A stretch of 35,800 bases of DNA from Lentimicrobiaceae bacterium (GTDB taxonomy: Bacteria; Bacteroidota; Bacteroidia; Bacteroidales; UBA4417): positions 123,879-159,678 of the forward strand of contig JADLKF010000010.1 of NCBI GenBank assembly GCA_015657475.1, given 5' to 3'. The notes beneath the pieces were generated by a model. It did no database searches. It was not told where the DNA came from and saw only the letters and a list, made by a program, of their open reading frames with translations. The translations under genes and the position numbers were made by a program. Below are positions 5,491 through 24,518 of the stretch, one piece after another; positions within the stretch are counted from its first letter, which is position 1, and each line of letters starts with the position of its first letter.

Positions 5491-8400
5491 ATGAGATCAC
5501 TTGTACACTTTACATCACCTTTAAATTATTGCGGGGATATGGCCATTTCTCAGCATGACACGAAAAGGAATTCCGGTAATAAAAACGTAATATCAAAAAT
5601 TTGCAAACGATTGACATTAAAAGTGTTGCTAATAATTGCAGCCCTCTTTCAGGTACAGCATTTATCGGCCGAAGGTACAAGGCAACTGGAACCTTCTGTG
5701 GGTCCTGGTACGCAGTACTGCAAGCTATATTTTGATAATGATCTCACCCAGTTTCGTGTACCATTTGCACAGTTAGGTTGTTCAGCTGACTACCGCCTGT
5801 ATTTCTATATTGACAATCCGGGTACTGAAGTGGTTTATTTCGGTTTTGGTTCAGCAATAAATTATGGCAATACTGTTCTCAACGATCTGCAGTTCCAAAT
5901 CAAGGACCCAAATAACAATATTGTGCCTGGATTTACCATGGCAGCACTTCCTACTGCCGGAGCAGGATATATTGCCACAAATGTGCAGGCTCAGGCCGGA
6001 CCAAATATTGGTGGAACAGTACCGACAGGATATACTCCACTCTCCTTTACCCCTGCTATGGCTGGTAATTACTACATTGAATTTTCAAAAAACAATTTAC
6101 CCATTGATATTGACGGCCGCGCTCTGCGTTATTTTGACCTAACTGTTGCCAGTGGTACTACACCAATTGACGGACGTTTATGGAGCAAAGCCTGGCAGAT
6201 GAGTTCTTCAACGACTTCGGCAGCAGCCGGTGGAAAGAGCTACTCCTCATTTTACTCTTTCACTACCGACAGCATCGTTACCCGCTTCAATTGCAACGGA
6301 TTCGCCGGTGGTGTCTTTACAGTATACTGTAACCAGTATGGAACAGCCAATACCGGTACCTGGGCCGTTGATCGCAGGTCAATCACAGGAAACGGCACTG
6401 TAATACCTCAATACAAACTCTTTTTAAATGACCCCGATACCAATGTTTACAAATCAGGTGTACTGGGGCGTATATGCGATGTTGTATCACAGCCTTATTG
6501 TGATGGCACTGTTGATATCCTTGTAAAAGTGACAAGGCCTGGTACCATGACCGTGACTATCGATGTATTACCTGCGGGAACCGGGCCTGAAGATGTGACA
6601 ATTACACTGCCTGTGATTGGGAACGACAGTTGCAATGTGTGGGATACCATTCACTGGAATGGTATAAACGGATTAGGCGTAATTGTTCAGAACGGTGCTG
6701 TTTACAACATGGATATAACCTACCTTAACGGACTGACCAACTTACCTCTGTATGATGTTGAAGACAACCGTTTTGGAATAAAAGTTGACCTAATCAGGCC
6801 GTCAATATCCGGGCCATCAATTTTACCTATTTATTGGGACGATGTTAATGTTGGTGGTTCTACCAATCTTACCGGTTGCATGTATCCTACCGGAGGCACT
6901 GTTACAGGATGCCATCCATGGCGATATACCGGATCACAGGATACACTCACACACAATTCGTGGTGGTATTATCTTAAGAATGGACCTGCCGGTTTAACGG
7001 TGGCTGTTCATCGCACCCCTCCTGCCGCGCCTGTACCCTCAGGGCCTTCGCAGGTATGCCAGGGACAAACAAGCGTGACCTATTCAATCCCGGCACAGCT
7101 TTCGACTGACCGCTACATTTGGTACCTTCCCGACGGCACTGTCGACACAACTCTGGTCCCTTCCGTCACCTTTGATATTGATTCAACTGCAACCTCCGGA
7201 ACAATAGCCGTGGTACTTTATAATATCAATTGCGGCAATGGCATAGCATCAGCACCTCTAAATATTACCGTAACGCAGACTCCTGTTCCTTCACCCCTTA
7301 TCATCAGGCCCTGCCCGTTTAAAACCGGTGACCTTACCTCCGTTCAACCGGCTGCACAACCCGGAACCACACTAACTTGGTACACTTCGGCAACCAGCCC
7401 ATCACCTGCAACACTCGTACCCAGCCCGACAGCAGCACCAGCAGGTGTATATTACCTGTTCGCCATTAACAATACAACAGGCTGTTTCAGCCCTGCTTCA
7501 CTGGCAGTACATATATTATGTGACACCTGTGCTCCAATTGCCATTAACGATACTATTTATACATCAAACACAACCCCTGGCATCATCAATGTCATACTCA
7601 ATGATCAGCCAGGAGATTTTACAATCAATCCTGCTACTGTGGATCTGAATCCTGCATTAGCAGGCATACAGCAAACGCTGACTCTTCCAGGTATCGGTAC
7701 ATTATCAGTTAATTCATCGGGATTACTTACATTCACTCCCAATGTTGCATTCATTGGAACGGTTTCGGTGCCTTATACAATTATGGATGTGCTGTCGAAC
7801 CTGTCGAACCAGGCCAGTATTATTATCACAGTAGGCCCTGATGGCGTAGCTGTTCCTGCATACCAGATTATTTGCTCCGGTGATACGGCAATCATTCATC
7901 TGAGTTCAAGTGTTCCGGGTGCAACATTTACATGGACTGTTACCGGCCCTGCATCCATTTCAGGACAGGCGCCGGGTTCAGGTAACCTGATATCTCAGGT
8001 ACTTGTAAATTCAAGTATGGCAAACCACATTATCACTTACTGGATAACTCCTTGGTACAATGGAATAGCCGGTCCGGTAGTCTCAGCCCAGGTTGAAGTT
8101 ACACCGCCGGTTACACTAACCAATCCTTCGCTTGCATCGACTATCTGCTCAGGCGGCAATACCAATATTACCCTAACTACCTCACCGGTTGCTGCAACTG
8201 TTAACTGGAATGCAACCAATACAGGTAATATTTCAGGAATCATTCCCACATCAGGTACTGGTAAAAACATTAACCAGACCCTGATTAACAGCGATCCAAG
8301 TATCAACTTCGTTTATTATGACATCCAGGTCTCGAATTACGGATGCACCACCGATCCTTACACTTATACTGTAACGGTTAACCCCATTCCAGATGTGATT

Positions 8401-11400
8401 GTTTTTCCGGCAACTACTGTTATCTGTTCAGGCACAGGCATTAATCTGAGCCTGGCTTCAAGCATGCCCGGCACCACTTTTACTTGGACAGCCACGGGTA
8501 CAGTGGGCGTTAGCGGATTTTCAGCAGGGAGTGGAAACACTATTGCCCAGACTATCAGTACAGTATCGGCTACCCAGGGAACAGTTACATACACCATTAC
8601 TCCATCAGCCAACGGATGCAACGGCAATCCTTATACTTACACCGTAACCGTAAATCCGATTCCGGCAGTCACCAACTTCCCTTTGTCAGCTGTGATCTGT
8701 TCAGGTTCTTCAACATCAATTTCGCTTACCTCAGCTGTTGCCGGAACATCCTTCAGCTGGTTCGCTTCAGGAACTCCAAGTACTTCAGGATACTCTGCGG
8801 GCAGCGGAAATACTATAAACCAGGTGCTTAGCAATACAGGAAACACCACGGGGACAGTAACATATTCGATTACGCCGACAGCTAACGGTTGTACTGGCAA
8901 TACGGTGAATTATGTCGTTACAGTAAATCCACTGGTTTATATCACCAGCGGCCCTTTGTTCCAGTCAGTTTGTACCGGATTCAGCACATGGATTCCTCTT
9001 ACTTCAAATGTGACCGGCTCAACATTCAGCTGGAATGCCACTGGAGATCCCGGAATCAGCGGTTATGGTTCAGGCAGCGGAAATGTAATTAACCAAACCC
9101 TGATCAATGCCAACAATACTCCCGGAAATGTTACCTATTTTGTAACCCCCACTGCCAACGGATGTGCCGGCGTTTCGTCAAGTTATGTTGTAACAGTGAA
9201 TCCTGACCCGGTGCTTTTCACCATGGCACCAACAGGTCCGCAGTGTGCCGGTACAATTTTAAGGCTCAACGGATCTGAAAGCGGCCTAATTTATATTCTG
9301 CGCTTGAACGGCAACAATATTGATACACTCACTGGAAATGGGCTTGTAGGATTCCTTGATTTCGGACCACAATATGCAACCGGAACTTACGACATTATAG
9401 CCATGAATCCGGTTACAGGATGCCAGGCTCCAATGTTAGGGACAGTTCTCATGAACCCCACTCCCGGTATATTCTCAGTAATCCCGGCAGGAATTCTTTG
9501 CCCGGGTGCAGACATAGGGCTTACCGGTTCTGAGACAGGCATTTCATACCAGTTACGCTGGAACCATATGATCAACATCGGAGCCCCGGTGAACGGAACA
9601 GGCGGACCAATAAGTTTTGGCACCCAGATATTCCCTGGTATCTATACTGTAATCGCCACTAACCCTGTCACCGGATGTTATGCCCTGATGGCCGACAGCG
9701 CAACTATTTACCCGCAGCCAACCATATACTCCGTGGTACCTGTCGGGTCAGGATGCCCCGGAACATCAATCGGATTAACAAGTTCACAACTGCTCATCGA
9801 TTATGTACTATTGCTCGATGGCATCATTCATATAGACACCATTTCAGGAAGCGGAAACCCTATTGATTTCGGACCGCAGACCACTGCCGGAACATATACG
9901 ATTCTTGCAATCAGCCAGAGCAATTACTGCCAGACGCTCATGAACGGAACTTTTGTAATAAATCCAGAACCTTTCAAATACAACCTCACTCCTTCAGGAA
10001 CGTTATGTGTGGGCCAGTCCGTCAGCCTTTCAGGCTCAGAATCCGGTGTAACTTACCAGCTTTATAACGGCACCATGGCCATTGGCGCACCCGTTACCGG
10101 TACAGGCAGTGTGCTTAATTTCGGCCCGCAATGGCTTGCAGGAGTATATACTGTAATAGCAACCAACAATACTACCGGTTGCACAGCATTAATGAATGAT
10201 TCTACTGTCTATCAACCGCTTCCGCCTTCATATGCTATTTATCCCCAGGGGATTATATGTTCGGGCAGCCCAATCTCATTAAATGGCTCCGACCCGGGAA
10301 TTAACTACACCCTGATGCTAAACAGCGTCATTCCGGTTGACACCCTTGCAGGTACCGGCGGCGTGCTGGATTTTGGAATACATTACCTGGCAGGCACTTA
10401 CACCGTTATAGCAAGCGCCACTACTTTCTCGTGCCAGTCAACAATGACAGGATCGGCAGTTATGGTCACCAATCCGCTGGTTTTCAATGTAACACCTGCC
10501 GGCACCAATTGCGGAACAGCCAATCTTGGCCTTGATGGTTCAGAGGCAGGGGTAAATTATACCCTTTATTATAATGGTATGATTACCAGCAGCATTGTTT
10601 CCGGAACAGGCGGACCTGTTTCTTTCGGCACTCAATATCCGGGCAATTACACTGTAGTGGCAATCAATACCTTTACTGGCTGCCAGTCGACGATGAACGG
10701 AATGATCACCATCAATGAACTTCCTATAGCTGTAGCAGGCTCTGATGCCACAATCTGTGAAAACGGCACTGCTACCCTCTCAGGAAATGCTTTCATGTAC
10801 ACCACTGTAGAATGGACAACTTCGGGTGACGGTACATTCATCAACCCCGGATCGCTCTATGCCGGATATGTGCCTGGATCAAACGATAATATTCTCGGCC
10901 ATGTAACTCTAACCCTTACAGCTTATAACACCTTATGCGGTTCAGTATCCGATGATCTGTTGCTCACAATCATTCCTTACCCTGTGGTTGATGCCGGACC
11001 CGATGCTGTTGTATGCAATGCCTGCAACTACCAGATTATCAATTCAACAGCCAGCAATACAACATCTGTTTACTGGATCACTTCAGGAACCGGAACTTTC
11101 AGCAATTCAACCGATCTTCATCCATTCTATTACCCCAGCACAACTGATTATGCCCTTGGTTCTGTTGTACTCACGCTTACAGGCAATGGTATTTCTCCTT
11201 GCGGTGAAGATAACGACCACATGATCCTGAGTTTTGACCCCAATCCAGGTGTGGATTTCACCTGGGGAGCATCGTGCGAACATGAATCAGTCGATTTCTT
11301 TGTAGATCCGGTTGCTACCAACATAGCTGCTGTTGCTTCATGGCACTGGGATTTCGGTGATGGCGGCTCATCATTACTGATGAACCCTTCGCATATATTC

Positions 11401-14400
11401 CCTGGGTGGGGACCTTATTTCGTGCGTTTAACTGCAGTTGATACTACAGGATATGTAAGGATTGTAACACATGAAGTGTATGTTTCACAGCCTCCTGCAG
11501 CCCTATTTGCAACAAGCGACCCGAACTGTTCCAACGAAGAAGTCCAGTTTAAAGACCTTTCGCACACGCTTTATGGTTATATCGAACAATGGGTATGGCA
11601 TTACAATGACGGTTTACCCAACGATACCATCAATTTCCCTGACGATCCCAATGTAAGGCATCTGTTCGACACTTCCGGTGTATTCAACGTGGTGCTCACC
11701 ATCCGCAATTCTTTCGGATGCGAGAATTCCATCATTATGCCCGTCACGGTAATTCCTGCTCCGGTCGCCAACTTCTATTACAACGGAGAGTGCGATTCCA
11801 CTGTAGTGAATTTCTTTGATGCTTCCTTCGCTAGCGGTGCCGGCAATGTGGTTCAATGGTGGTGGAATTTTGACGACCCAATTTCAGGAATCAACAATAC
11901 CTCAGAACTTGAAGACCCGACGCATACATTCAGCAAACCGGGTACGTACATGGTGACACATGTGGTTCGTAATTTCAACAACTGCACTGATACCATTGTG
12001 AAACCGGTTGTAATACTGCCTCCCCAAAACGTTCAATTCACTCATAGCTATACCTGCATTGATGAATTAACACATTTTGTCCCCGACACTACCTCAATTA
12101 ATGCCGGCGCTGTTGCAACCTGGCTCTGGGATTTTGGCGATGGACTCACCAGCAACGATATGTATGCATCACACGCTTATACTTTGCCGGGAACCTACCA
12201 GGTAACACTTACTATAACTGATACCAGCGATTGTGTGGATTACGGCTCCCAGCTACTGGTTGTCAATCCAAAGCCTGTCGCCAATTTCAGCACTGAACCC
12301 TGGCTTTGCGAAGATTCTCCGGTTCAGTTCACCGATCAGAGTCTGGCCGTTGCCGGTTACATACACCGTTGGGAATGGATATTTGGTGATGGCGATACCC
12401 TTATTGTAAACCATCCTGACAATCCAAATGTTGAGCACAATTATGCTGCAGCAGGTACTTACTTCGTAACGTTAAAAATCACTGTTACCGATAGTTGCAC
12501 TGCTGAGGTTACCAATAGCATAACCATAAACCCAGCACCTGTTGCCAATTTTACATTTGACTATAATTGCCAGAACAACTTCACACAGTTCAGTGATCTT
12601 TCACAGTTGGCCGGAGGTGGCAGTGTTACCGGCTGGATATGGAATTTTGGTGACCCGGCTTCGGGTATTGCCAATACTTCTACTCTCCAGAATCCTTCAC
12701 ACAAATATGCTGCGACAGGCACCTATAATGTCTCTCTTACCGTCACCACTGCAAACGGATGCTCGAATGAAGTCATCATCCCCGTGACGATAATCCCCGC
12801 CCCGGCAGCTGAATTCACTTTCCAGCAGAACTGTGCCGGTACTTCTACCCTGTTCACTCCCGCAGCTACAATTCCTGCAGCTGGCATTGACACCTGGTTC
12901 TGGGATTTTGGCGACGGATCGACATCGAGCCTTCAACAACCTGCACATCAGTATGCTACAATCGGAAACTACCAGGTAACATTTACCATTACTGACACTG
13001 CAGGCTGCTCAAACAGCATCATGCATACAGTTACTATTGTTCCTTCACCTGTATCGAACTTCACCAGCAGTCAGCCCTCATGTTCCGGCAATGCAATAAC
13101 TTTCACCAGCCTTGCTTCAGTTCAGATAGGATATATTGTTGAATGGACCTGGGATTTTGGTGACGGTTCAAGTCAGACAATCGCATTCCCTGAAAACCCG
13201 AACATAACACATGCATATGCTACATACGGGCAATTCCCAGTTACCCTCACAGTTGTAACCAACGACAGTTGCTCGGCAAGCAGGACTATTCCTGTAAATG
13301 TACTGCAAAGCCCGCTGGCCAATTTCAGCTTTGAAGGATCTTGTGTTGCAGATCCTGTCCATTTCAGCGATCTCTCCCAGGGAGGTGTGATCACCAGTTG
13401 GAACTGGAATTTTGGTGACATTTATGCCGGTGGCAGCAATTCATCAATACTGCAGAACCCGCAACACACCTATTCAATGCCAGGAACTTATCCTGTCAGA
13501 CTAATCACAGGAAATGTGAATGGATGCTTCGATACTATTGTTAAAAATGTGGTCATCAGCCCGGCTCCCATTGTCGATTTTACTTTCAATGCCGGCTGTG
13601 CCAACGATACAGTTCATTTTGTAAGCTCAGCTTCGGTGAACATGACAACCACCGTTTCATGGCTGTGGCAATTTGGTGATGGAAGCACTTCAACCGATAG
13701 TGACCCGTTCCATGTATATGCAGCACCCGGATTTTACAATGTAAGCCTCACCATTACTGATACGAGCGGTTGTGATAATACAAAAACACGCATAGTTCCG
13801 GTCACCCAGGCTCCTGTGGCATCCTTTGCTACTTCATCGCTCATGTGCAGCGGAATGCCGGTGGCATTCAACGATATGTCATCAACATCAAACGGGTCAA
13901 TCAGTTCGTGGCACTGGAATTTTGATGACGGAACCGATACAACCATATACGCACCTGCCAATCCCGACATTGAGCATGTATTTGCCGTGGCCGGGACCTA
14001 CAATGTATCCCTTTCGATTACAACAACTGCAGGTTGCGAAGATGATGTGACTCTTGCCGTAACCGTCAATTTTGCCCCGGTAGCCTCGTTTGAAGTTCAG
14101 GGCAACTGCCCCGGCCAGCCAGCTTTGTTCACCGACGAATCACAAGCCTCAGGAGGATCAACCATAGTATCATGGTCATGGAACTTCGGCGATCCCGCTT
14201 CAGGAAGCAATACTTCCTATATGCAGAATCCCCAGCATATTTATAATCAACCCGGTACTTACACTGTGACGTTACAGGTTGAAAATATGAACGGCTGCAG
14301 TGCCGGCATCAGCCAGGATATTACCGTAACACCTCCTACCGCTATAGCCATTTCCAGTGATATACCAGCATGCTTCGGCACACCTGTCATTTTGGGAATT

Positions 14401-16986
14401 GATTCTGCCATCACCAACCCAGCCGAAATCGCATCATATGACTGGGATTTTGGCGATGGTACACCTCACTCTACATTGGCAAACCCAAGTCATACCTACA
14501 ATGCACCCGGCAATTACACCGTCATCCTGACAATCACCGACCTCAACGGATGCAACAATACTGATGACCAGCCGATTACTGTTCACACCAGCCCGGTTGC
14601 TCAATTCTCAAGCGACAACAGTTGTGTAAACCTTTACACCAGTTTCACCGATCAGAGCTTCGTTCCTGATGGAGATCCCATTATATCATGGTCATGGGAT
14701 TTTGGTGTCAATGGAAGCACAAATGATACTTCGTCAATGCAAAACCCCGTTTGGATGTATGCCACTGGCAGTAGCTACCAGGTATCGCTGGAAGTCACAA
14801 CGCTTGGAGGTTGCACAGGAACGGTAACATCAACCGTTACCATTCTGCCGAAACCGGAAGCAGGCTTCACTTATATTGCTGAGCCTTGTCACCACGGGTC
14901 GGTATCATTTAGCGATTCTTCCTATTCGCAGCAATCGGTGATTACCTCATGGTACTGGGAATTTGAACCCGGCAGTTACTCAACGCTCAGAAACCCGACT
15001 TACGTATTTGTAAATACGGACACCTGGTATAATGTCAAGCTCACCGTTACCAATGCACAAGGCTGTACCGATACCATTATAAAGCCGGTGTATGTGCCTT
15101 CAGGTCTCAATATGACATTTACCGCAACAGAAACCTGTTTTGGCGACACCACGCAGTTCACACCACAACTCCTTCCGCCGGCAACTGATTCAATCGCTTT
15201 CTACAGTTGGAATTTCGGTGACCTGAATACCGGTGTCTACAATCAGTCAACCCTCAGGAATCCTGCCCACCGGTTCTCCAAGGCTGGCACCTATGTTGTA
15301 ACGTTAACAGCTACAACACCTTCGCTTTGCACTACAACCATTAACCGCCAGGTAGAGATAGTTGATCTTCCCAAACCGAAATTCAGCTATACCGGTGGCG
15401 ATTGCAATGACATTGTTGAATTGAAAGATCAGACTTCAGGCACGAACCTTTCGCAATGGGTTTGGGAATTTGGCGATGGTAACACTGTTACAGTCAATGC
15501 CCCGGCTAATCCAAATGTCAGCCATTCTTATCCAAATGCAGGACTCTATCTGACATCACTCACCGTAACTAACGCACACGGATGTGTAAGCTCGGTTACT
15601 GATTCTGTGAAAAGGCTGCCCTGTATAGCCAGTAATTTCAATATCAATGATACCACAGCCTGCCAGAACCGCACAATGCATTTCAGTGATATGAGCACCT
15701 GTGCCGGCCCCATTGCCAACTGGATGTGGGACTTTGGTGATGGCACCACCCAGGCCTATTCATCGCCACAGGATCTGGTTGAACATACATTTACATCATC
15801 CGGAACATATACTGTGCGACTGGTAGTAAATACCCAGCTCGTAGGCGGAATTACAGCTGCCGATACCAGTGCCAAAGCTGTAAGGGTACATCCTGCACCA
15901 AGAGCACAGTTTGTATGGAATGACGTTTGCCTGAGCACCTCATCTGAATTCAAGAACACGACGAACCAGAACGGATTGCAGGTAAGAGATTATTCATGGG
16001 ATTTTGGTGATTTTGCTTCAGGCCAGGACACAACTTCTGCAATGAATCCAAGCTATCTGTATACCGAAGCAGGAGGCTATGATGTGAAGATGGTTGCCTG
16101 CAACACCATGGGCTGTACCGATACAATCGTTCACACAGTGAATGTTTTTGACAGCCCGAAAGCCGAATTCAACTGGCAAAGCTCCTGCGACGGCGATCCT
16201 GTTCAGTTTGTTGATAAATCAGACACCGCCTCGGCACCGCTCAAATCGTGGAACTGGTACTTCCATGATGATGAAGGTGCGGTAATAGGAGCTGCTACTT
16301 CGCAAAATCCAGCTTTTGATTTCGCAAATCCCGGCTTATTCTATACCGAACTCAGTGTGACCGACAGGCACGGATGCGAAAATAAGACGGGGAAACAAGT
16401 TGCTGTTAACAGCAGCCCGGTTGCAGCATTTACCATTAAAGATCATTACGACAATACACAGGGCCAGATTCAGATACAGAATGGCACCATCAACGGGTCA
16501 AATTACCTGTGGGACTTTGGCGACGGCAAGACCTCCTATGCTGAGAATCCTGTAACTACCTTTGACAAAGGCGGTTCATATACCATCAGGCTCATTACCT
16601 GGAATGGCCAGAACTGCGCCGATACGGCAGAGATCAATTATGAACTCACCTTCAAGGGATTGTATATTCCTAATGCGTTTTCGCCAGATGATCCACAAGA
16701 AAGTGTAAGGCTCTTCAAGCCGGTTGGCATGAACCTGAAAGCATATCACATCGAAGTATTCGACCGCTGGGGCAATATCATCTGGTCGTCAGAAAAACTT
16801 GATAAGAACGGGGCTCCGGTTGAAGGCTGGGATGGAACTATAAACAGCATACCGGTACAGTCAGGAGTTTACATGTGGAAAGCCAGCGCCATATTTACCG
16901 ATGGAACAAAATGGGACGGCATCAATGTAGGCGATAATACTACTTTACCGCAGACTGACACCGGAACAGTAACATTAATCAGATAA
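5491..16986 (+). CDS. Giant multi-PKD surface protein with T9SS type B sorting domain
   Basis: This 3831-residue protein is probably a cell-surface adhesin exported by the type IX secretion system. Its order is: a signal peptide with a long N-region (hydrophobic core about residues 46-56); an unassigned N-terminal domain to about 500; an Ig/PKD-like domain (about 510-610); a cadherin-like domain (about 683-780); five PKD-like Ig repeats (782-1239); six repeats of an 84-residue family (1240-1743); two further Ig-like repeats (1744-1920); 21 PKD domains (1921-3720); and the gliding-motility-associated C-terminal domain (3721-3831, YIPNAFSPDD ... FDRWGN ... GVYMWK). Nearly every repeat has a cysteine near its start and another in a late GC motif, suggesting one disulfide per domain. 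ATG at 5539 would give a shorter signal peptide. The frame is intact. The PorP/SprF gene follows. Confidence 0.93.
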   Translation: MRSLVHFTSPLNYCGDMAISQHDTKRNSGNKNVISKICKRLTLKVLLIIAALFQVQHLSAEGTRQLEPSVGPGTQYCKLYFDNDLTQFRVPFAQLGCSADYRLYFYIDNPGTEVVYFGFGSAINYGNTVLNDLQFQIKDPNNNIVPGFTMAALPTAGAGYIATNVQAQAGPNIGGTVPTGYTPLSFTPAMAGNYYIEFSKNNLPIDIDGRALRYFDLTVASGTTPIDGRLWSKAWQMSSSTTSAAAGGKSYSSFYSFTTDSIVTRFNCNGFAGGVFTVYCNQYGTANTGTWAVDRRSITGNGTVIPQYKLFLNDPDTNVYKSGVLGRICDVVSQPYCDGTVDILVKVTRPGTMTVTIDVLPAGTGPEDVTITLPVIGNDSCNVWDTIHWNGINGLGVIVQNGAVYNMDITYLNGLTNLPLYDVEDNRFGIKVDLIRPSISGPSILPIYWDDVNVGGSTNLTGCMYPTGGTVTGCHPWRYTGSQDTLTHNSWWYYLKNGPAGLTVAVHRTPPAAPVPSGPSQVCQGQTSVTYSIPAQLSTDRYIWYLPDGTVDTTLVPSVTFDIDSTATSGTIAVVLYNINCGNGIASAPLNITVTQTPVPSPLIIRPCPFKTGDLTSVQPAAQPGTTLTWYTSATSPSPATLVPSPTAAPAGVYYLFAINNTTGCFSPASLAVHILCDTCAPIAINDTIYTSNTTPGIINVILNDQPGDFTINPATVDLNPALAGIQQTLTLPGIGTLSVNSSGLLTFTPNVAFIGTVSVPYTIMDVLSNLSNQASIIITVGPDGVAVPAYQIICSGDTAIIHLSSSVPGATFTWTVTGPASISGQAPGSGNLISQVLVNSSMANHIITYWITPWYNGIAGPVVSAQVEVTPPVTLTNPSLASTICSGGNTNITLTTSPVAATVNWNATNTGNISGIIPTSGTGKNINQTLINSDPSINFVYYDIQVSNYGCTTDPYTYTVTVNPIPDVIVFPATTVICSGTGINLSLASSMPGTTFTWTATGTVGVSGFSAGSGNTIAQTISTVSATQGTVTYTITPSANGCNGNPYTYTVTVNPIPAVTNFPLSAVICSGSSTSISLTSAVAGTSFSWFASGTPSTSGYSAGSGNTINQVLSNTGNTTGTVTYSITPTANGCTGNTVNYVVTVNPLVYITSGPLFQSVCTGFSTWIPLTSNVTGSTFSWNATGDPGISGYGSGSGNVINQTLINANNTPGNVTYFVTPTANGCAGVSSSYVVTVNPDPVLFTMAPTGPQCAGTILRLNGSESGLIYILRLNGNNIDTLTGNGLVGFLDFGPQYATGTYDIIAMNPVTGCQAPMLGTVLMNPTPGIFSVIPAGILCPGADIGLTGSETGISYQLRWNHMINIGAPVNGTGGPISFGTQIFPGIYTVIATNPVTGCYALMADSATIYPQPTIYSVVPVGSGCPGTSIGLTSSQLLIDYVLLLDGIIHIDTISGSGNPIDFGPQTTAGTYTILAISQSNYCQTLMNGTFVINPEPFKYNLTPSGTLCVGQSVSLSGSESGVTYQLYNGTMAIGAPVTGTGSVLNFGPQWLAGVYTVIATNNTTGCTALMNDSTVYQPLPPSYAIYPQGIICSGSPISLNGSDPGINYTLMLNSVIPVDTLAGTGGVLDFGIHYLAGTYTVIASATTFSCQSTMTGSAVMVTNPLVFNVTPAGTNCGTANLGLDGSEAGVNYTLYYNGMITSSIVSGTGGPVSFGTQYPGNYTVVAINTFTGCQSTMNGMITINELPIAVAGSDATICENGTATLSGNAFMYTTVEWTTSGDGTFINPGSLYAGYVPGSNDNILGHVTLTLTAYNTLCGSVSDDLLLTIIPYPVVDAGPDAVVCNACNYQIINSTASNTTSVYWITSGTGTFSNSTDLHPFYYPSTTDYALGSVVLTLTGNGISPCGEDNDHMILSFDPNPGVDFTWGASCEHESVDFFVDPVATNIAAVASWHWDFGDGGSSLLMNPSHIFPGWGPYFVRLTAVDTTGYVRIVTHEVYVSQPPAALFATSDPNCSNEEVQFKDLSHTLYGYIEQWVWHYNDGLPNDTINFPDDPNVRHLFDTSGVFNVVLTIRNSFGCENSIIMPVTVIPAPVANFYYNGECDSTVVNFFDASFASGAGNVVQWWWNFDDPISGINNTSELEDPTHTFSKPGTYMVTHVVRNFNNCTDTIVKPVVILPPQNVQFTHSYTCIDELTHFVPDTTSINAGAVATWLWDFGDGLTSNDMYASHAYTLPGTYQVTLTITDTSDCVDYGSQLLVVNPKPVANFSTEPWLCEDSPVQFTDQSLAVAGYIHRWEWIFGDGDTLIVNHPDNPNVEHNYAAAGTYFVTLKITVTDSCTAEVTNSITINPAPVANFTFDYNCQNNFTQFSDLSQLAGGGSVTGWIWNFGDPASGIANTSTLQNPSHKYAATGTYNVSLTVTTANGCSNEVIIPVTIIPAPAAEFTFQQNCAGTSTLFTPAATIPAAGIDTWFWDFGDGSTSSLQQPAHQYATIGNYQVTFTITDTAGCSNSIMHTVTIVPSPVSNFTSSQPSCSGNAITFTSLASVQIGYIVEWTWDFGDGSSQTIAFPENPNITHAYATYGQFPVTLTVVTNDSCSASRTIPVNVLQSPLANFSFEGSCVADPVHFSDLSQGGVITSWNWNFGDIYAGGSNSSILQNPQHTYSMPGTYPVRLITGNVNGCFDTIVKNVVISPAPIVDFTFNAGCANDTVHFVSSASVNMTTTVSWLWQFGDGSTSTDSDPFHVYAAPGFYNVSLTITDTSGCDNTKTRIVPVTQAPVASFATSSLMCSGMPVAFNDMSSTSNGSISSWHWNFDDGTDTTIYAPANPDIEHVFAVAGTYNVSLSITTTAGCEDDVTLAVTVNFAPVASFEVQGNCPGQPALFTDESQASGGSTIVSWSWNFGDPASGSNTSYMQNPQHIYNQPGTYTVTLQVENMNGCSAGISQDITVTPPTAIAISSDIPACFGTPVILGIDSAITNPAEIASYDWDFGDGTPHSTLANPSHTYNAPGNYTVILTITDLNGCNNTDDQPITVHTSPVAQFSSDNSCVNLYTSFTDQSFVPDGDPIISWSWDFGVNGSTNDTSSMQNPVWMYATGSSYQVSLEVTTLGGCTGTVTSTVTILPKPEAGFTYIAEPCHHGSVSFSDSSYSQQSVITSWYWEFEPGSYSTLRNPTYVFVNTDTWYNVKLTVTNAQGCTDTIIKPVYVPSGLNMTFTATETCFGDTTQFTPQLLPPATDSIAFYSWNFGDLNTGVYNQSTLRNPAHRFSKAGTYVVTLTATTPSLCTTTINRQVEIVDLPKPKFSYTGGDCNDIVELKDQTSGTNLSQWVWEFGDGNTVTVNAPANPNVSHSYPNAGLYLTSLTVTNAHGCVSSVTDSVKRLPCIASNFNINDTTACQNRTMHFSDMSTCAGPIANWMWDFGDGTTQAYSSPQDLVEHTFTSSGTYTVRLVVNTQLVGGITAADTSAKAVRVHPAPRAQFVWNDVCLSTSSEFKNTTNQNGLQVRDYSWDFGDFASGQDTTSAMNPSYLYTEAGGYDVKMVACNTMGCTDTIVHTVNVFDSPKAEFNWQSSCDGDPVQFVDKSDTASAPLKSWNWYFHDDEGAVIGAATSQNPAFDFANPGLFYTELSVTDRHGCENKTGKQVAVNSSPVAAFTIKDHYDNTQGQIQIQNGTINGSNYLWDFGDGKTSYAENPVTTFDKGGSYTIRLITWNGQNCADTAEINYELTFKGLYIPNAFSPDDPQESVRLFKPVGMNLKAYHIEVFDRWGNIIWSSEKLDKNGAPVEGWDGTINSIPVQSGVYMWKASAIFTDGTKWDGINVGDNTTLPQTDTGTVTLIR
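7834..9207 (+). repeat. Five tandem PKD-like Ig repeats (about 91 residues each)
   Basis: Copies begin near 7834, 8101, 8383, 8656 and 8929. Each has an (I/V)C(S/T)G motif about 13-15 residues in, a central (F/V)(T/S/N)W segment, a glycine/serine turn (SGSGN-like), and all but the first end in VTVNP or a close variant. They are diverged at DNA level, so the array is old and not a recent expansion. Confidence 0.85.
9208..10719 (+). repeat. Six tandem repeats of an 84-residue domain family
   Basis: Copies begin near 9208, 9463, 9718, 9970, 10222 and 10477. The shared pattern is P-x-G-x2-C, then LxGS(E/D)-x-G-(I/V)-x-Y-x-L, a GTGG-like turn, FG-x-Q, GTYTV-x-A and TGC-x2-x-M. There is no WDFGDG motif, so these are not PKD domains. 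I do not recognise a named family. Confidence 0.8.
10720..11250 (+). repeat. Two tandem Ig-like repeats
   Basis: Both copies start with a (V/A)-x-AG-x-DA-x(2)C motif, have W(T/I)TSG-x-GTF in the middle and a G(H/S)V-x-LTLT strand near the end. They bridge the 84-residue repeats and the PKD block. Confidence 0.75.
11251..16650 (+). repeat. Block of 21 PKD domains, the first 12 as four A-B-C triplets
   Basis: PKD domains (about 86 residues) are beta-sandwich surface modules. Each copy shows W-x-W-(D/N)-F-(G/D)-D or a close variant. Domains 1-12 cycle through three subtypes: A with WDFGDG and TITDT-(S/A)GC; B with GYI-x2-W and an NP(N/D)-x2-H segment; C with WNFGDP-x-SG, QNP-x-H and a late N-x-(N/G)C. 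Triplets start at about 11251, 12031, 12808 and 13570 (762-780 bases each). Domains 13-21 are less regular. Domain 21 lacks the first cysteine and domain 1 lacks the second. Confidence 0.88.
16651..16983 (+). other. T9SS type B (gliding-motility-associated) C-terminal sorting domain
   Basis: The last 111 residues carry YIPNAFSPDD, FDRWGN, GWDGT and SGVYMWKASA. These are hallmarks of the CHU_C/type B sorting domain, which directs secretion through the type IX system and, in known cases, needs a PorP/SprF-type partner. The next gene encodes such a partner. Confidence 0.92.
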
Positions 16987-17110: not shown

Positions 17111-18229
17111 ATGAAAAGATTTTACTTAACCTGCAACATTCTAGCTCCGGCATTGCTGATTTTGCTTTCGCTCATGCCGGCTGTGGACCTTAAAGCGCAG
17201 GACCCGCATTTTACCCAGTTTTACAATAATCCCATCTACTACAATCCGGGATATATCGGACTGAATCCGGGTTACAGGGCACGGTTTAATTACCGTGACC
17301 AGTGGACCGGCCTTCCAACCGATTTCAAAACGTACAGCTTTTCTATGGATGTAGCTGAACGCGGAATCCCCGGTTCAGGTGGTTTGGGAATGCTCGTACT
17401 TTCTGATAAAGCAGGAACAGGGATGATCAAGACCAATAATGTTGGGATTGGTACTGCTGCACGTGTTCCGCTGCAGGAAAATATGGTCGCCCAGGTGGGT
17501 TTTCTGGTATCTTTCGTCCAGAAAACTATTGACTGGGATCACCTTGTATTTACAGATCAGCTCAGTGCAAGGTATGGCAACATATACCCGACAAATTTCG
17601 AAGCTCCCGACAAAAACAATGTGACGTATCCCGATTTTTCGATCGGTGGTGTATATCGTTTTGCCGAAACAGGATGGAGCTTTTCAGCCATCCAGGGAAC
17701 CATTGGTGCTGCACTGCATCATGCATTTACACCCAATGAATCGTTCCTCGGACTCACGGCTCAAATTCCCCGTAAACTTGTGATCAATGGCGACCTGGTA
17801 CTTGAAATGGAACAGGGACGCGGCTCATCATACCGTAACTATCGTAATACAGGTTCATTCAAGTTTAACCCCGGCTTTATCTATGAGAAACAATCGGAGT
17901 TCTCCACCTACTCGGTTGGTGTGAACGTGCTTAAATCATCCATCTATTTTGGCGTATGGTTCCGCAATCAGACTTTCGATCTCTTCAAAGCAAATGATGC
18001 CATGTTTTCGGTTGGTGTTAACGCACCCTTCAACCGTGAAACCCGCCTGAAGATCATGTACACATACGATTATATCATCACCGAGCTTCGTACTGCAGCC
18101 AAGGCTTCACATGAAGTTTCGCTCATCTTCGAATTCGATAACTTCAGCCTGTTTGGCGACGGAGGAGGAGGATTCTCTCCCAGCTATCGTGGCACCAAGT
18201 TCCGTGAAATGGAGTGCTGCCCGTTCTAG
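17111..18229 (+). CDS. PorP/SprF family type IX secretion system membrane protein
   Basis: PorP/SprF proteins are outer-membrane beta-barrels of the type IX system. In Flavobacterium, SprF is needed for surface delivery of the type B client SprB encoded beside it. This 372-residue protein has a signal peptide ending near residue 30 and then the family-typical start QDPHFTQFYNNPIYYNPGY. GMLVLSDKAGTGM and repeated amphipathic strands fit the barrel. It ends with a short Gly-rich stretch and FREMECCPF, which contains a Cys-Cys pair. It follows the giant PKD gene by 124 bases on the same strand. I infer that it is the dedicated transport or anchoring partner of that protein. Confidence 0.93.
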   Translation: MKRFYLTCNILAPALLILLSLMPAVDLKAQDPHFTQFYNNPIYYNPGYIGLNPGYRARFNYRDQWTGLPTDFKTYSFSMDVAERGIPGSGGLGMLVLSDKAGTGMIKTNNVGIGTAARVPLQENMVAQVGFLVSFVQKTIDWDHLVFTDQLSARYGNIYPTNFEAPDKNNVTYPDFSIGGVYRFAETGWSFSAIQGTIGAALHHAFTPNESFLGLTAQIPRKLVINGDLVLEMEQGRGSSYRNYRNTGSFKFNPGFIYEKQSEFSTYSVGVNVLKSSIYFGVWFRNQTFDLFKANDAMFSVGVNAPFNRETRLKIMYTYDYIITELRTAAKASHEVSLIFEFDNFSLFGDGGGGFSPSYRGTKFREMECCPF

Positions 18230-18623: not shown

Positions 18624-20459
18624 CTATTCGCTGGCAACTTTAACATTCTTTATTTCCCAACTTGCCGACTCACTATCGGAGCAAAGATACTTGAATGCGA
18701 TGCGCACATTCGACTGACCCATCATTGAAGCCGGGAGCGGACACGAACCTGAATTCACAAAAGTCCAGTTATTACCGGCCGGATAAGTAGTTATAGTAAC
18801 CTGTTCCCAGGTAGCAGTACTGGGGGCTCCGTCATTATAATTCTTTGATACCCAGAGGGTGTGATTGGTCTGCAGATTATCCAGGAGGCCTTTATTGATA
18901 GTATGATCAAAGGTGACTGAAGCGTTAGTTGCCGAACTGAGATCCATTGCTGGTGAGATCAGCCAGTCTTCATTCTGGTGGCTTGCACTATTGTAGTAAC
19001 CTGACACCTTCATGTATTTATATGTATCCCATGTCCAAACCTGGTCGCCAATAACACTTTGTGTTGTGAAAGCTCCCTGGCCGGCAGCAAACGATTCATC
19101 AAGAAATGTAGTTGCTCCGGTACCACCTCCGCCTGTTCCTACATAAATATCATCAATACAGAAAGTTGATGTGTTGGTAGCATCACCTTCGTATTTGAAT
19201 CCGATGTAAACATTGCCGGTATATCCTGACGGTACATAATCCGAAAGGTTAATATTGCCTGAAGCTACCCAGGTATAATCAGGGTCGCTGGCTCCGGCCA
19301 GTGTGGCGTTTATTTTTGTCCAGGTAGCTGCTGAAGCATCACCTGTGTAATTGTAGAGTATCCAAACCGAAAGCTGGTCGGTGACATAGTACGCTTTTTC
19401 AGATTTGAATGAAAGTTTCAGTGATGATGAATAAACGATAGGAGGTGTAACCAGCCAGGGTTTGTTTTCTGCATCGGTTGTGTTGTATGAAGTGGCCTGG
19501 GCATAAATCTCGCTTTGGAAAGTTTTGCCCTGCCAGTTACGCGAACCTGCTGCTGCCTGGTTTGTCCAACCCTCAATTGCTATATCAGAGCTTGCAGTCG
19601 CATTGTCAAATTTCTCATCTATCCCCGTTACCGCTGTGATACCTGTTGCCGGGTAAACAAATTCAGGAGAAACAGGGATTACGCCTGAGAAGTTCTTCGC
19701 ATCGCTGGTGTCGCGAACAGTCAGCTGTAATGTACCATTATAGGAACTCAGGATGCCTAAAACTTTTCCGTAGCCCGAAGGAATGGTATCAAGGGCAAAA
19801 TTTGCATAATTGCTTGTACGGACTACAATTGACTTACCACTTGCAGTGAGTGTCCGGTTGGTCGTAGCGTCAGCAGTAGCCCAGGTGTCTTTGCCTCCGT
19901 CAGCAAAAGTGGCATTATCGATTGAGACCAGCATACTCAGGTATGCTGAATTATCGGCTCCCAGGTCAATCTGAACAGGTTCCGGAATACCTCCCGGAAG
20001 ACTGTCGCGAAACATATGGTCAGGAATTAATATTTCAGGCAACTGGCCAATCTTGTTTTCATATGTATAACCTAACTGGATGAGTCCGCCATAGTCGCCA
20101 AGATACATCCCTTTACATTTTACATAAACTTCCTGACCTAATTTGTATTCGTTATAAAGGCTGGTTTTATTCAACAGGATTTCGATACCTGCTGTTTCGT
20201 CCTGGATCACCAGTTTTTTGTAAAGGTTACCAGACTCATCGTTGGCAACAACCTTTCCTTTAATTATTAGGTCATCGCTGATTGAGTCGAGTGAACCCTG
20301 GTATAGCGCTTTTAAAGCAGCAATGGTCGTATTGGATGAAAAATCAACAGTCGGGATGTTGATGGGTGGTTCATCAAAGTCGCCTTTTACACAGGCAGTA
20401 ATGGAAAGTACAACAGCCAGCAGGCTAAGAAGTGTAGTCCTTATAGCAGATTTACTCAT
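18624..20459 (-). CDS. DUF5689 and choice-of-anchor J domain lipoprotein
   Basis: This 611-residue protein has a lipoprotein signal with Cys23 (LSITAC), followed by VKGDFDE. That fits the acidic surface-export signal of Bacteroidetes lipoproteins. Residues about 40-260 match DUF5689, an OB-fold-like region (LIIKGKVVANDESGN, then IQDETAGIEILL, ending TLQLTVRD). Two choice-of-anchor J-type beta-sandwich domains follow, at about 280-445 (DEKFDN ... GWT ... WLVTPPI) and 455-610 (DESFAAGQG ... DWLISPA). The TonB receptor gene lies 53 bases upstream on the same strand, so the two are probably one operon. This protein may be the surface partner of the receptor, in the position SusD has in sugar systems. 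It is not a SusD homologue by sequence. Its ligand is unknown. Confidence 0.85.
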   Translation of the reverse strand: MSKSAIRTTLLSLLAVVLSITACVKGDFDEPPINIPTVDFSSNTTIAALKALYQGSLDSISDDLIIKGKVVANDESGNLYKKLVIQDETAGIEILLNKTSLYNEYKLGQEVYVKCKGMYLGDYGGLIQLGYTYENKIGQLPEILIPDHMFRDSLPGGIPEPVQIDLGADNSAYLSMLVSIDNATFADGGKDTWATADATTNRTLTASGKSIVVRTSNYANFALDTIPSGYGKVLGILSSYNGTLQLTVRDTSDAKNFSGVIPVSPEFVYPATGITAVTGIDEKFDNATASSDIAIEGWTNQAAAGSRNWQGKTFQSEIYAQATSYNTTDAENKPWLVTPPIVYSSSLKLSFKSEKAYYVTDQLSVWILYNYTGDASAATWTKINATLAGASDPDYTWVASGNINLSDYVPSGYTGNVYIGFKYEGDATNTSTFCIDDIYVGTGGGGTGATTFLDESFAAGQGAFTTQSVIGDQVWTWDTYKYMKVSGYYNSASHQNEDWLISPAMDLSSATNASVTFDHTINKGLLDNLQTNHTLWVSKNYNDGAPSTATWEQVTITTYPAGNNWTFVNSGSCPLPASMMGQSNVRIAFKYLCSDSESASWEIKNVKVASE

Positions 20460-20512
20460 GATTATGTTGGTGTTTTTTTTTCAGTTATTAATTGTTCTTT
20501 GGTATTATTGGA

Positions 20513-23227
20513 TCAAAACCTGAATCCTACATTGAAAAAATATGTCCTTCCGTAGGAATAGTAGTATTTGCCGGGAAACTTATCAATTCCGTTCTGCAGA
20601 TACTCATGGGTGTAGTCAAAGCGGTTTTGTTCGTATCCGCCGGAAATCAGGCTTGTATTATCAAGTATGTTGTTAACGGAGAAATTGAGGTTAATGAAAT
20701 ACTTGTATTTAATGCGGATGGATTTACCGATGGATGCATCAATTGTATAACCTCCGTCAAGCTGTTGCTGCTTTGTAATTACTTCTATAAGCGGGTCGCC
20801 GGGGCCAAGATTAGCAATAGCAGCCTGTGTACGACGCATTGGGTTAAAATCGAGCCACATACCGTCGTAGTAATTTACATTCAGGTCGACAAACCAGTAG
20901 TTCTTGCTGAACTTCAGACCAACGCTTCCGGCAAACTGCGGCGTACCTCCGAGATAGAAGTTCTTAGCATAAATGGTTTCAGTTGTATCAGGTTCGGAGC
21001 CGTTATCATAGTTAATTGTTCCGGTTGGCCTGTTGGTGTACCTGTAGTTACCATAAGAAGCGACGGTAACAAGTTTCAGGCTGCTGAGCAATTTGGTTTC
21101 GGCACCGAATTCAATTCCCTGGTGGATACGGTTAACACCGGTCATGGCCATATTCACGAAAGTTTCGAGGTCATCGGCATAGAAACGAAGTATTTCAGTA
21201 TGATCTTTAAATGAAGTCTCGTAAACAGTGAAACGGGCATTGAAACCGGGATAGCGTACAACATAGGAAATATCACCTGCCAGAATCTTCTCATTGGCCA
21301 TACCTGGCACAAGGTCGGCACCTGTTCGGGGTGAAATGTATGCATCACGCAACAATGGCGGGCGCATGAGGTAAGCTCCGTTGGCTGTAACAAAATGACG
21401 ACCTGTAACTTTCCAGGTAGCCCCGGCTTTCAGATTATATATTAACGAAGATTGTTTTTCTGATACTCCGAACGAATTATCTGGATTCCGGCCATTAAGC
21501 ATAAAGCCTTCACGCCAGTATTGAGTTCCTCCGAAAGTTGCTGCGGCATAGTAATCGAAATGCGGGTAATTGAGTTCAAGTAAGCCCCATAGGTTCCCGG
21601 TATTACTCAGAAGGTCGTAATCGTAACCAAAACGGTCACCGACTTTAATAACGCGATCGGGATTGTTCAGGTCATTCTGCAGTTTTTCCTTGTCGGCTTT
21701 GAAATCGCGTTCTGAAAACTGGTCGATATCAATCCAGTATTCACCTCCAAGCAGGTCTTCCAGTGTTTTATAATGCGATCCATTGTAATGATTCAGTTCA
21801 ATTCCTCCGCTTAAATTGCTGTGTTCACCTGTTATCCTATTGATACGCGATGTAAAGTACCATTGGTTTTGAGCGGTAATGTTGTTCTCGAGAATGTAAC
21901 GTGCCTGTTCCCCTTCAATATTGGCAAGGTAATTAATCTGGTAAAGCTTGTCCCAGTTAATCTGGCTGACTGACGGATTGTTCTTCCATGCATCGATAAT
22001 AGCTGCCTGAACATATGGATCAACCGCGACAGCCGGGTCCTGATGATAGTTAGGCAGGTTGCGGTAATAATCAGGGCGCGGATCGCTTGAATTATACCAG
22101 TTGAGTCCGGTAGTGCCGGTTTTGCCAAAACTGTATGCCAGGGAGGTTGTTACGGTTGTTTTGTCATCAATAGTCCAGTATTCGCTAAGGATGAGCTTGG
22201 GTTCATTGAGAGTTCTCACACGGGCATTACGTTTAACACCATCCTGGTATCCCCAGTTGGCATTGTAATAATTTGAACCCACCAGGTCATAGACTTCCTG
22301 TACGGAGGCTGAATTCATACCACGACGTGTAGGTGAAGCAAAACCTGTGAGTGCAATGCTGTGTTTTGAGTTGATCTTTTTCTCAACGCCAAGGAAGTAG
22401 GCATAAGCATCGTAAAATGTACCGGGCACATAGCCTTCTTCGCTCCAGCGGCGTGAAACACTTGCCGAAACAGCCCAGTTATTCTTCATCATACCAGTTG
22501 AGTATGTGAACATAAGCCGGTTTGTGTACGACCTGTTCGAAAGCGAATAGGATAATTTGGTTTGCTTACGCTGTTTCGAAGCCCGGGTTGTAATATACGA
22601 CGAGCCTCCAAGGCTGCCAAACGAGAACTTACCCGGCTGCAATCCGTTGATATACTCACGGTTACGCATCACATCGTTGAGTCCTCCCCATTCACCCCAA
22701 ACAGCGCGGCCTGTTTCGGCATCGTTAAAAGGAATTCCTTCGATAAGCACCGTCTCGTATTCCGAGTCGTAACCCCTTGACCGGAAAAACATAGAGCTGA
22801 AAGTGTATGAAGCCGTATTGACAAAAACATCTCCCGATGAGTGCAGCAGGCTTGAAACAGCCTGGTCCTTATCATCACTTTCACCCCCGAGGGTAATTTC
22901 AGCAATGCCTGACTCAGTCTGAGTCTGCGATGGCTGCATCTGCAACTTGCCAACATTAACCGGGCCATTGGCAACTTTTACAGGCATCGACAGCGGCTCG
23001 AAGCCAAGCATCGTTATTGTAAGAGTGTAGTCTCCGTTACTGAGTCCTTCGAGAATAAACGAACCGTCGTTGTGTGTGTAGCCACTCACTGTTCCGGCTT
23101 CCACTGTTGCATGTATCAGCGGATTACCAGTGAGGCCTTCATTTACTGTTCCCGAAATGCTGAATGTCTGAGCTATTGCCGTCGTAACAGAGATAAACAG
23201 GACGACAAATGCAAAAAGTACCTTCAT
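20513..23227 (-). CDS. TonB-dependent receptor with CarboxypepD_reg-like N-terminal domain
   Basis: TonB-dependent receptors import large or scarce substrates across the outer membrane using energy passed on by TonB. This 904-residue protein has a signal peptide (cleavage near residue 19) and a carboxypeptidase-regulatory-like beta-sandwich (about 20-100, FSISGTVNEGLTGNPL ... GDYTLTITMLGF). A plug region follows at about 120-235 (VLIEGIPFNDAETG ... FGSLGGSSYI), then a 22-strand-type barrel ending in a terminal Phe (NVGFRF). No SusD gene is adjacent. Instead a DUF5689 lipoprotein follows and two nuclease-type genes are divergent. The substrate cannot be read from the sequence. I infer nucleic-acid-derived or other phosphate-containing material from the neighbours. 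Confidence 0.92.
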   Translation of the reverse strand: MKVLFAFVVLFISVTTAIAQTFSISGTVNEGLTGNPLIHATVEAGTVSGYTHNDGSFILEGLSNGDYTLTITMLGFEPLSMPVKVANGPVNVGKLQMQPSQTQTESGIAEITLGGESDDKDQAVSSLLHSSGDVFVNTASYTFSSMFFRSRGYDSEYETVLIEGIPFNDAETGRAVWGEWGGLNDVMRNREYINGLQPGKFSFGSLGGSSYITTRASKQRKQTKLSYSLSNRSYTNRLMFTYSTGMMKNNWAVSASVSRRWSEEGYVPGTFYDAYAYFLGVEKKINSKHSIALTGFASPTRRGMNSASVQEVYDLVGSNYYNANWGYQDGVKRNARVRTLNEPKLILSEYWTIDDKTTVTTSLAYSFGKTGTTGLNWYNSSDPRPDYYRNLPNYHQDPAVAVDPYVQAAIIDAWKNNPSVSQINWDKLYQINYLANIEGEQARYILENNITAQNQWYFTSRINRITGEHSNLSGGIELNHYNGSHYKTLEDLLGGEYWIDIDQFSERDFKADKEKLQNDLNNPDRVIKVGDRFGYDYDLLSNTGNLWGLLELNYPHFDYYAAATFGGTQYWREGFMLNGRNPDNSFGVSEKQSSLIYNLKAGATWKVTGRHFVTANGAYLMRPPLLRDAYISPRTGADLVPGMANEKILAGDISYVVRYPGFNARFTVYETSFKDHTEILRFYADDLETFVNMAMTGVNRIHQGIEFGAETKLLSSLKLVTVASYGNYRYTNRPTGTINYDNGSEPDTTETIYAKNFYLGGTPQFAGSVGLKFSKNYWFVDLNVNYYDGMWLDFNPMRRTQAAIANLGPGDPLIEVITKQQQLDGGYTIDASIGKSIRIKYKYFINLNFSVNNILDNTSLISGGYEQNRFDYTHEYLQNGIDKFPGKYYYSYGRTYFFNVGFRF

Positions 23228-23383
23228 AGGTTGATTTTAACGGTAAATATTTAGTATGATATTGTTTGTTTGTTTTTACATTGAAGGGAGGGGGTGCAAA
23301 AGAACAAAAAAAAACCGACATATCAGGGTTTATTCCAAAATTGAGTCAACAATTATCGATTACCGGCCTATCAAAATAATAGG

Positions 23384-23391
23384 TAAATTTG
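23384..23391 (+). promoter_or_regulatory. Candidate -7 promoter box for the EEP-family gene
   Basis: TAAATTTG fits TAnnTTTG exactly and lies 21 bases before the ATG at 23413, implying a very short leader. It overlaps the alternative TTG start at 23389, which supports the later ATG. No -33 TTG is seen. Confidence 0.45.
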
Positions 23392-23412
23392 CCGGTGAAT
23401 TTTAACCTTACT

Positions 23413-24453
23413 ATGCCTGCTAAATCTGCCATTTTACTCCTGATCACAGGAATTTGCTTCATTCTTACAGCATCTCCGGCCAGCGCCCAGCAAAAGAAAG
23501 TCAAAGCTGCCACCATCGCTTTTTACAACCTCGAAAACCTGTTCGATACCATCGATGATCCTGATAAAAACGACGAAGAATTTCTTCCCGGCGGAGCTAA
23601 TCACTGGACATCTGAGCGTTACCTGAAGAAACTTGCCAATATGTCGCAGGTAATTTCGCAGGTTGGCAACGAGTTCACCAAAGGAGGTCCAACATTGCTT
23701 GGCGTTTCTGAAATTGAAAACAGGCTGGTACTCGAAGACCTGATAAAAACTCCTGCACTGGTCAATTCTGGTTACGGAATAGTGCATTACGATTCGCCCG
23801 ACAGTCGTGGTGTTGATGTTGGTTTGATATACCGGAAACGCGATTTTACTGTAATTAATACCGTATCGGCACGGCTGAATATGCCGGGTGAACCAAACTG
23901 GAAGTCGCGTGACCAATTGGTTGTAACCGGGCTGCTTGATGGTGACACCATAAGTGTGATTGTCAATCACTGGCCTTCAAGGGGGAATCTTCCTCCATAC
24001 CGGGCAGCAGCAGCAAGCCTGACCCGCAGCCTGGCCGATTCGCTTTACAGGGCAAGCAGCAATGCCAAAATTGTGATCATGGGTGACCTCAACGATGATC
24101 CGGTGGATGAAAGCGTAAATGTGATCCTGGGAGCCCAGGGCCAGGAGCAGAAGGTGAAACCGGGAATGCTTTTCAACCCTATGTGGAAAATGTTCAGAGA
24201 CGGAATCGGCTCGCTTGCATACCGCGATTCATGGAACTTGTTCGACCAGACTATCATTTCCGAGCCCCTCTTACATGGTAAGGAAGGATCATGGCATTGG
24301 TACAAAACCAAGGTTTACAATCAGCCATTCCTTATCAGCCGTGAAGGACAGTATTCCGGTTACCCGTTCCGTACGTTTGCCGGTGGTGCATATGCAGGTG
24401 GATACAGCGATCATCTTCCTGTTTATACGGTAATTGTCAAAGAATCCAAGTAA
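23413..24453 (+). CDS. Secreted endonuclease/exonuclease/phosphatase (EEP) family protein
   Basis: EEP enzymes are metal-dependent phosphodiesterases or phosphatases (DNase I, exonuclease III and others). With the ATG at 23413 the protein has 346 residues and a clear signal peptide ending SAQ near residue 26. Active-site motifs are N39-L-E-N, E100 (VSEIEN), N186-H187 (NHWPSR), D225 and N227 (MGDLND) and a terminal SDHLP near residue 335. All the core catalytic residues are present. It lacks a lipobox and a T9SS sorting domain, so it is probably periplasmic. It is divergent from the TonB receptor and 65 bases upstream of the PLD-type nuclease gene. The substrate (DNA, RNA or a small phosphoester) cannot be told from the sequence. 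A paralogue is at 32075-33154. Confidence 0.88.
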   Translation: MPAKSAILLLITGICFILTASPASAQQKKVKAATIAFYNLENLFDTIDDPDKNDEEFLPGGANHWTSERYLKKLANMSQVISQVGNEFTKGGPTLLGVSEIENRLVLEDLIKTPALVNSGYGIVHYDSPDSRGVDVGLIYRKRDFTVINTVSARLNMPGEPNWKSRDQLVVTGLLDGDTISVIVNHWPSRGNLPPYRAAAASLTRSLADSLYRASSNAKIVIMGDLNDDPVDESVNVILGAQGQEQKVKPGMLFNPMWKMFRDGIGSLAYRDSWNLFDQTIISEPLLHGKEGSWHWYKTKVYNQPFLISREGQYSGYPFRTFAGGAYAGGYSDHLPVYTVIVKESK

Positions 24454-24518
24454 AGCGCTTCCGCCCCCGATAGTAACCTGCCAAACTTTTACTTCTAATC
24501 ACTTTCCCTGAACTTGGT

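Follow-up and report, generated by a model that had tools for sequence, protein, structure and literature searches.

The window (the whole stretch of 35,800 nucleotides that was analysed), from an uncultured member of Bacteroidota, contains one very large gene, an open reading frame of 3831 amino acids at 5491-16986 of the forward strand, on which the gene directly after it also lies. Its predicted product is a giant cargo protein of the type IX secretion system (T9SS), made of a head, 21 PKD domains and a type B C-terminal domain. The N-terminal domain of the head (about residues 1-520; 5491-7050) has no Pfam match, and its homologues were found in 16 of 16 genomes of the genus, the closest being that of genome G005 (86%). 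Next come a part in which Pfam recognises Ig-like domains of the PKD_6, Big_9 and PKD_5 families (7039-9210) and six repeats of about 84 residues each (9211-10725), in which two types apparently alternate. This alternation was the best of 10 groupings, and the repeats seem to form a possible two-domain super-repeat within the same protein. No recognised binding fold was found in the head.

The PKD nature of the stalk (PF18911/PF00801) is clear, since 21 stretches exceed the curated cut-off of the Pfam PKD_4 model (E = 1.9e-258). We delimited these domains (D1-D21) by hand at PxAxF-like starts and then compared all of them with one another. The first twelve fall into four triplets of the subtypes A, B and C: T1 (D1-D3, 11248-12027, 780 bases), T2 (D4-D6, 12028-12804, 777 bases), T3 (D7-D9, 12805-13569, 765 bases) and T4 (D10-D12, 13570-14340, 771 bases). 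A block of nine domains, D13-D21 (14341-16653), follows, and the same nine positions are present in homologues throughout the order. The protein ends with a CHU_C/T9SS type B sorting domain (16654-16983), recognised by a Pfam profile barely above its cut-off (27.9 vs 27 bits). The score of the Bac_Flav_CTERM model (TIGR04131) was below its cut-off. In alignment this sorting domain is well conserved among the homologues.

The next gene after the stalk gene (17111-18229) encodes an outer-membrane protein with a clear match to the PorP/SprF family of the T9SS. A PorP/SprF homologue lies directly downstream of the stalk gene in 12 loci, the window and 11 others. SprB, a type B protein of Flavobacterium johnsoniae, requires SprF for secretion and display, and it is bound by SprF at its C-terminal region (PMC9143113). 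The repeated presence of a PorP/SprF gene behind the stalk gene suggests a T9SS type B protein that most likely serves as an adhesin or fibre at the cell surface. The coupling is not universal, because locus L077 and the near-identical stalks found elsewhere in the window's own genome have no such gene directly downstream. Genes for SprA, GldL, GldH and six proteins of the PorP family show that the genome has a T9SS, and the cargo gene encodes the CHU_C domain expected of a type B substrate. By analogy with the known families, the protein would be exported by the T9SS, anchored by the PorP/SprF protein and adhesive through its head. The SprA gene contains one in-frame TGA. Further along the window, a group of genes for secreted proteins (18624-26714) encodes a DUF5689/choice-of-anchor J lipoprotein, carboxypeptidase-regulatory-like and endonuclease/exonuclease family proteins, and a PLD-like protein with a T9SS type A sorting domain.

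The twelve domains D1-D12 (11248-14340) read ABCABCABCABC. A preliminary description of this DNA had placed four A-B-C triplets at 11251-14337, with units of 780, 777, 762 and 768 bases and a period of about 257 residues; our boundaries differ from these by a few bases, and the pattern itself was borne out by each comparison. The mean global alignment scores at lags of 3, 6 and 9 domains were 178, 182 and 176, and those at all other lags were 91-122. Grouping the domains modulo three ranked first among the 5775 possible groupings into three sets of four. In a self dot plot of D1-D12, strong 40-residue windows numbered 458 at an offset of 259 residues and 319 at 516, as compared to 150 at the spacing of one domain. 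For offsets of 248-269, none of 1000 random domain orders reached the observed count. Domains in the same register are 33-49% identical, and within the repeat, positional counterparts resemble each other more closely than other domains do, as in a true super-repeat. Strong motifs are common to PKD domains, and chance similarity among them might be thought to yield an apparent period. We regard this as practically negligible and rejected it, because the grouping rank and the shuffled orders argue against it and the same register recurs in dozens of homologues.

A tree of the twelve domains agreed with the register in part. An A clade (85/95) and a B clade (65/78) were recovered with weak support, while a C clade, also foreseen in the preliminary description, was not recovered but was not rejected either (p-AU 0.30). 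Clades of neighbouring domains, which would have spoken against the triplets, were rejected in three of four cases (p = 0.009-0.022), the exception being D4-D6 (p = 0.147). With about 85 residues, a single domain offers too little signal for more than weak support of strict single-domain clades, and a tree of concatenated triplets served better. Among 342 homologue domains the main difference between the subtypes lies in the loop that follows the FGD motif, which is short in A, reads TI-x-FP-x-NPNV-x-H in B and P-x-SG-x-NNTS-x-LQNP in C; 312 of the 342 have exactly two cysteines. The motifs first proposed for the subtypes hold in general, with the exceptions of D10 (WQFGDG), D11 (GSI), D9 (WNFGDI) and D1, which lacks TITDT-GC.

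The nine domains D13-D21 had been viewed as a possibly older, decayed part of the array, and this view had to be abandoned. Fourteen complete proteins have 865-886 residues from D13 to their end (a fifteenth is truncated at its contig end), the nine domains are conserved position by position, and their alignment contains many invariant positions. The mean identity between arrays of the genus is 44% for D13-D21 vs 48% for D1-D12. By these alignments D13-D21 is the constant base of the stalk. The subtype likenesses described earlier for this part were largely reproduced: D13 is A-like, D17 B-like and D16 C-like, but D19 resembles C only weakly, and D14 is also C-like.

Homologous stalks throughout the order consist of n ABC triplets, the fixed nine-domain block and a T9SS C-terminal domain, with n from 2 to 7. 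In the genus of the window all complete arrays, which come from 12 genomes, have 12+9 domains (n = 4). In the sister family f6 we found 9+9 domains in four proteins and 15+9 in one (n = 3 or 5), and outside both groups n is 2, 3, 5 or 7. Beyond the genus a C-type domain directly precedes the nine-domain block. Some distant arrays (L076, L197, L201, L192-L194) begin with one or two extra domains and so depart from exact multiples of three. In a tree of 90 triplets, T2-T3 and T4-T5 of L188, which has five triplets, pair with the same two f6 clades, indicating an in-register tandem duplication of a six-domain (two-triplet) block. Triplets T4, T5 and T6 of L201, which has seven, are mutually 64-75% identical and cluster with the single T4 of L076, indicating repeated duplication of one triplet. 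Lengths thus change by whole super-repeats, and these comparisons support the triplet as the unit of stalk length change, in line with the preliminary suggestion of growth by triplet duplication. The expected differences in multiples of three domains were seen beyond the genus, but within it the length does not vary. Similar arrays were also present in records named Fermentibacteraceae, Hyphomicrobiales and Thiorhodococcus (L078, L125 and L149), which are likely misbinned Bacteroidota contigs.

For the gene in the window, growth of the array belongs to the past. At the DNA level only short similar blocks remain between the triplets and no tandem array was detected in this gene; the duplications are therefore old. 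A recent local duplication in this gene was rejected on the same grounds, as the DNA copies are too diverged. In the 90-triplet tree each of T1 to T4 falls together with its positional counterparts from other paralogues of the genus, apart from a few stray rows. The four triplets therefore predate the divergence of the paralogues. Same-position domains across the genus arrays are usually each other's best match. The array is thus not growing now in this lineage, as its earlier interpretation would imply, since its four triplets are ancient and have position-specific orthologues.

The same genome contains further stalk loci (L009, L010, L012, L011, L013, L014 and L015, on contigs C25, C26, C6, C24, C3, C4 and C20, respectively). 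A second stalk type is present in at least five loci of this genome as stretches of 6.3-8.7 kb with 97.7-99.9% DNA identity and different heads; the protein identity of the heads is about 69-76% for C6 and about 45% for C24. This suggests that stalks of the second type may have been homogenised between loci and their heads exchanged. An assembly break in this repeat may account for part of the identity among C3, C4, C20, C25 and C26. In L016, L017 and L011 the stalk copies are split between reading frames (in L016, for example, D1-D2 and D3-D21) by frameshift, decay or sequencing error.

We consider it likely that the gene encodes a T9SS type B stalk protein with a fixed base, D13-D21, and a distal row of triplets resized by in-register duplication and deletion, held by its C-terminal domain through a PorP/SprF-like protein. 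At the level of sequence, the register, the change of length by triplets, the fixed base and the neighbouring PorP/SprF gene are established. In the proposed mechanism, the PKD stalk of a surface protein would carry a variable N-terminal head, and the PorP/SprF-like product of the neighbouring gene would hold the C-terminal domain of this protein at the outer membrane. D13-D21 would form the membrane-proximal base, and the distal row of A-B-C triplets, each of about 258 residues, would lift the head; the placing of base and C-terminal domain at the outer membrane and the lifting by triplets are inferred by analogy. The row would have grown and shrunk as whole triplets were tandemly duplicated or deleted in register, and triplet number would therefore set stalk length in fixed steps. 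In the genus, the number would already have settled at four when the paralogues separated, and position-specific sequence would then have arisen in each triplet. Selection on stalk length and a role of the triplet as a structural period would go a step further.

Three other readings deserve to be weighed against this stalk. The triplet order might simply record neutral history, in which three domains were duplicated together on a few occasions and took on no structural or length role. In-register duplication alone would preserve the order, and one loop accounts for most of the difference between A, B and C. A model of ABCABC (D4-D9) gave confident domains (mean pLDDT 90.7) with confidently modelled junctions but moderate confidence in the arrangement (pTM 0.48), and in the model from D13 to the protein end (pLDDT 82.9, pTM 0.32) the domains were likewise confident and their arrangement was not. 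At this level of confidence the triplet is no more than a plausible structural unit. We doubt that history is the whole explanation, because about 20 genus arrays, although diverged to 44-48% mean identity, all retain precisely four triplets and nine base domains, and no single-domain changes were seen inside the triplet part of these arrays. It is also rather unlikely that the protein is an SprB-type gliding adhesin that the T9SS motor propels along the cell. The type B C-terminal domain, the adjoining PorP/SprF gene and the GldL and GldH genes fit that role, but GldH was also found in a Bacteroides control genome and is therefore no proof of gliding, and not all type B proteins move.

The structural models bear on an appendage as well. 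GhpA of Aureispira is a T9SS-secreted heptamer (PMC11205867) of 5,898 residues (PMC13319060), and its fragments scored best in the fold comparison with the six-domain model (ranks 1-3 and 5-8, TM 0.40-0.51, for a model with a pTM of 0.48); the neck and base of GhpA came first for the terminal block. The protein might thus self-assemble into a hook-like or filamentous appendage with the triplet as its axial repeat. Relatives consisting of little more than a stalk do exist (L077, L168, L170, L174, L180, L182 and L183), so carrying a head is not the role of every stalk. These proteins of 1936-1974 amino acids have almost no head, their first PKD domain starting at residue 29-57, and comprise 21 PKD domains and the C-terminal domain. 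Against this reading, no GhpA chain appeared in PDB sequence searches (E up to 1, or 1e-5), and we therefore do not claim membership; moreover, rods of Ig-like domains can be alike in fold without a common role. We think such an appendage unlikely. Comparably speculative is the idea of a surface fibre or hook-like oligomer in which the triplet forms the axial structural period and the number of triplets, four in the genus, is an encoded ruler for the height of the head above the nine-domain base.

The T9SS type B stalk that we favour can be compared with several known systems. All 21 domains match the Pfam PKD_4/PKD family, but its models hold no A/B/C subtypes, no triplet and no fixed nine-domain base. 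Bacterial surface stalks are usually described as simple one-domain repeats, and a literature search found no description of PKD super-repeats. With SprB and SprF of F. johnsoniae the locus shares a giant repetitive T9SS type B protein and an adjoining PorP/SprF-like gene (PMC9143113). GhpA is likewise a giant T9SS-secreted chain of Ig-like domains, from a Bacteroidota predator, and the best fold match of both modelled parts. It differs in having no sequence match to the stalk and in its oligomer, hook and predation, whereas the present protein is known from sequence and models.

The closest known organisation is the A-band of titin, where several beta-sandwich domain types stand in a fixed order that is repeated as a block. 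Its super-repeat units are longer, with 7 and 11 domains, and are composed of two domain families (Ig/FnIII) in muscle cells, whereas here three subtypes of one family are found on a bacterium. In titin, too, domains at equal positions are more alike, the super-repeats arose and grew by duplication, and their role as a length ruler is supported by a deletion in the mouse (PMC10665226). What is new here is a T9SS stalk whose base is constant and whose distal part is a counted row of three-domain super-repeats from a single domain family, in a stalk family that extends over many families of one bacterial order. The natural series of stalks with 2, 3, 4, 5 and 7 triplets could test the role of length and domain order in secretion and display, comparable to the super-repeat deletion that tested the ruler role of titin.
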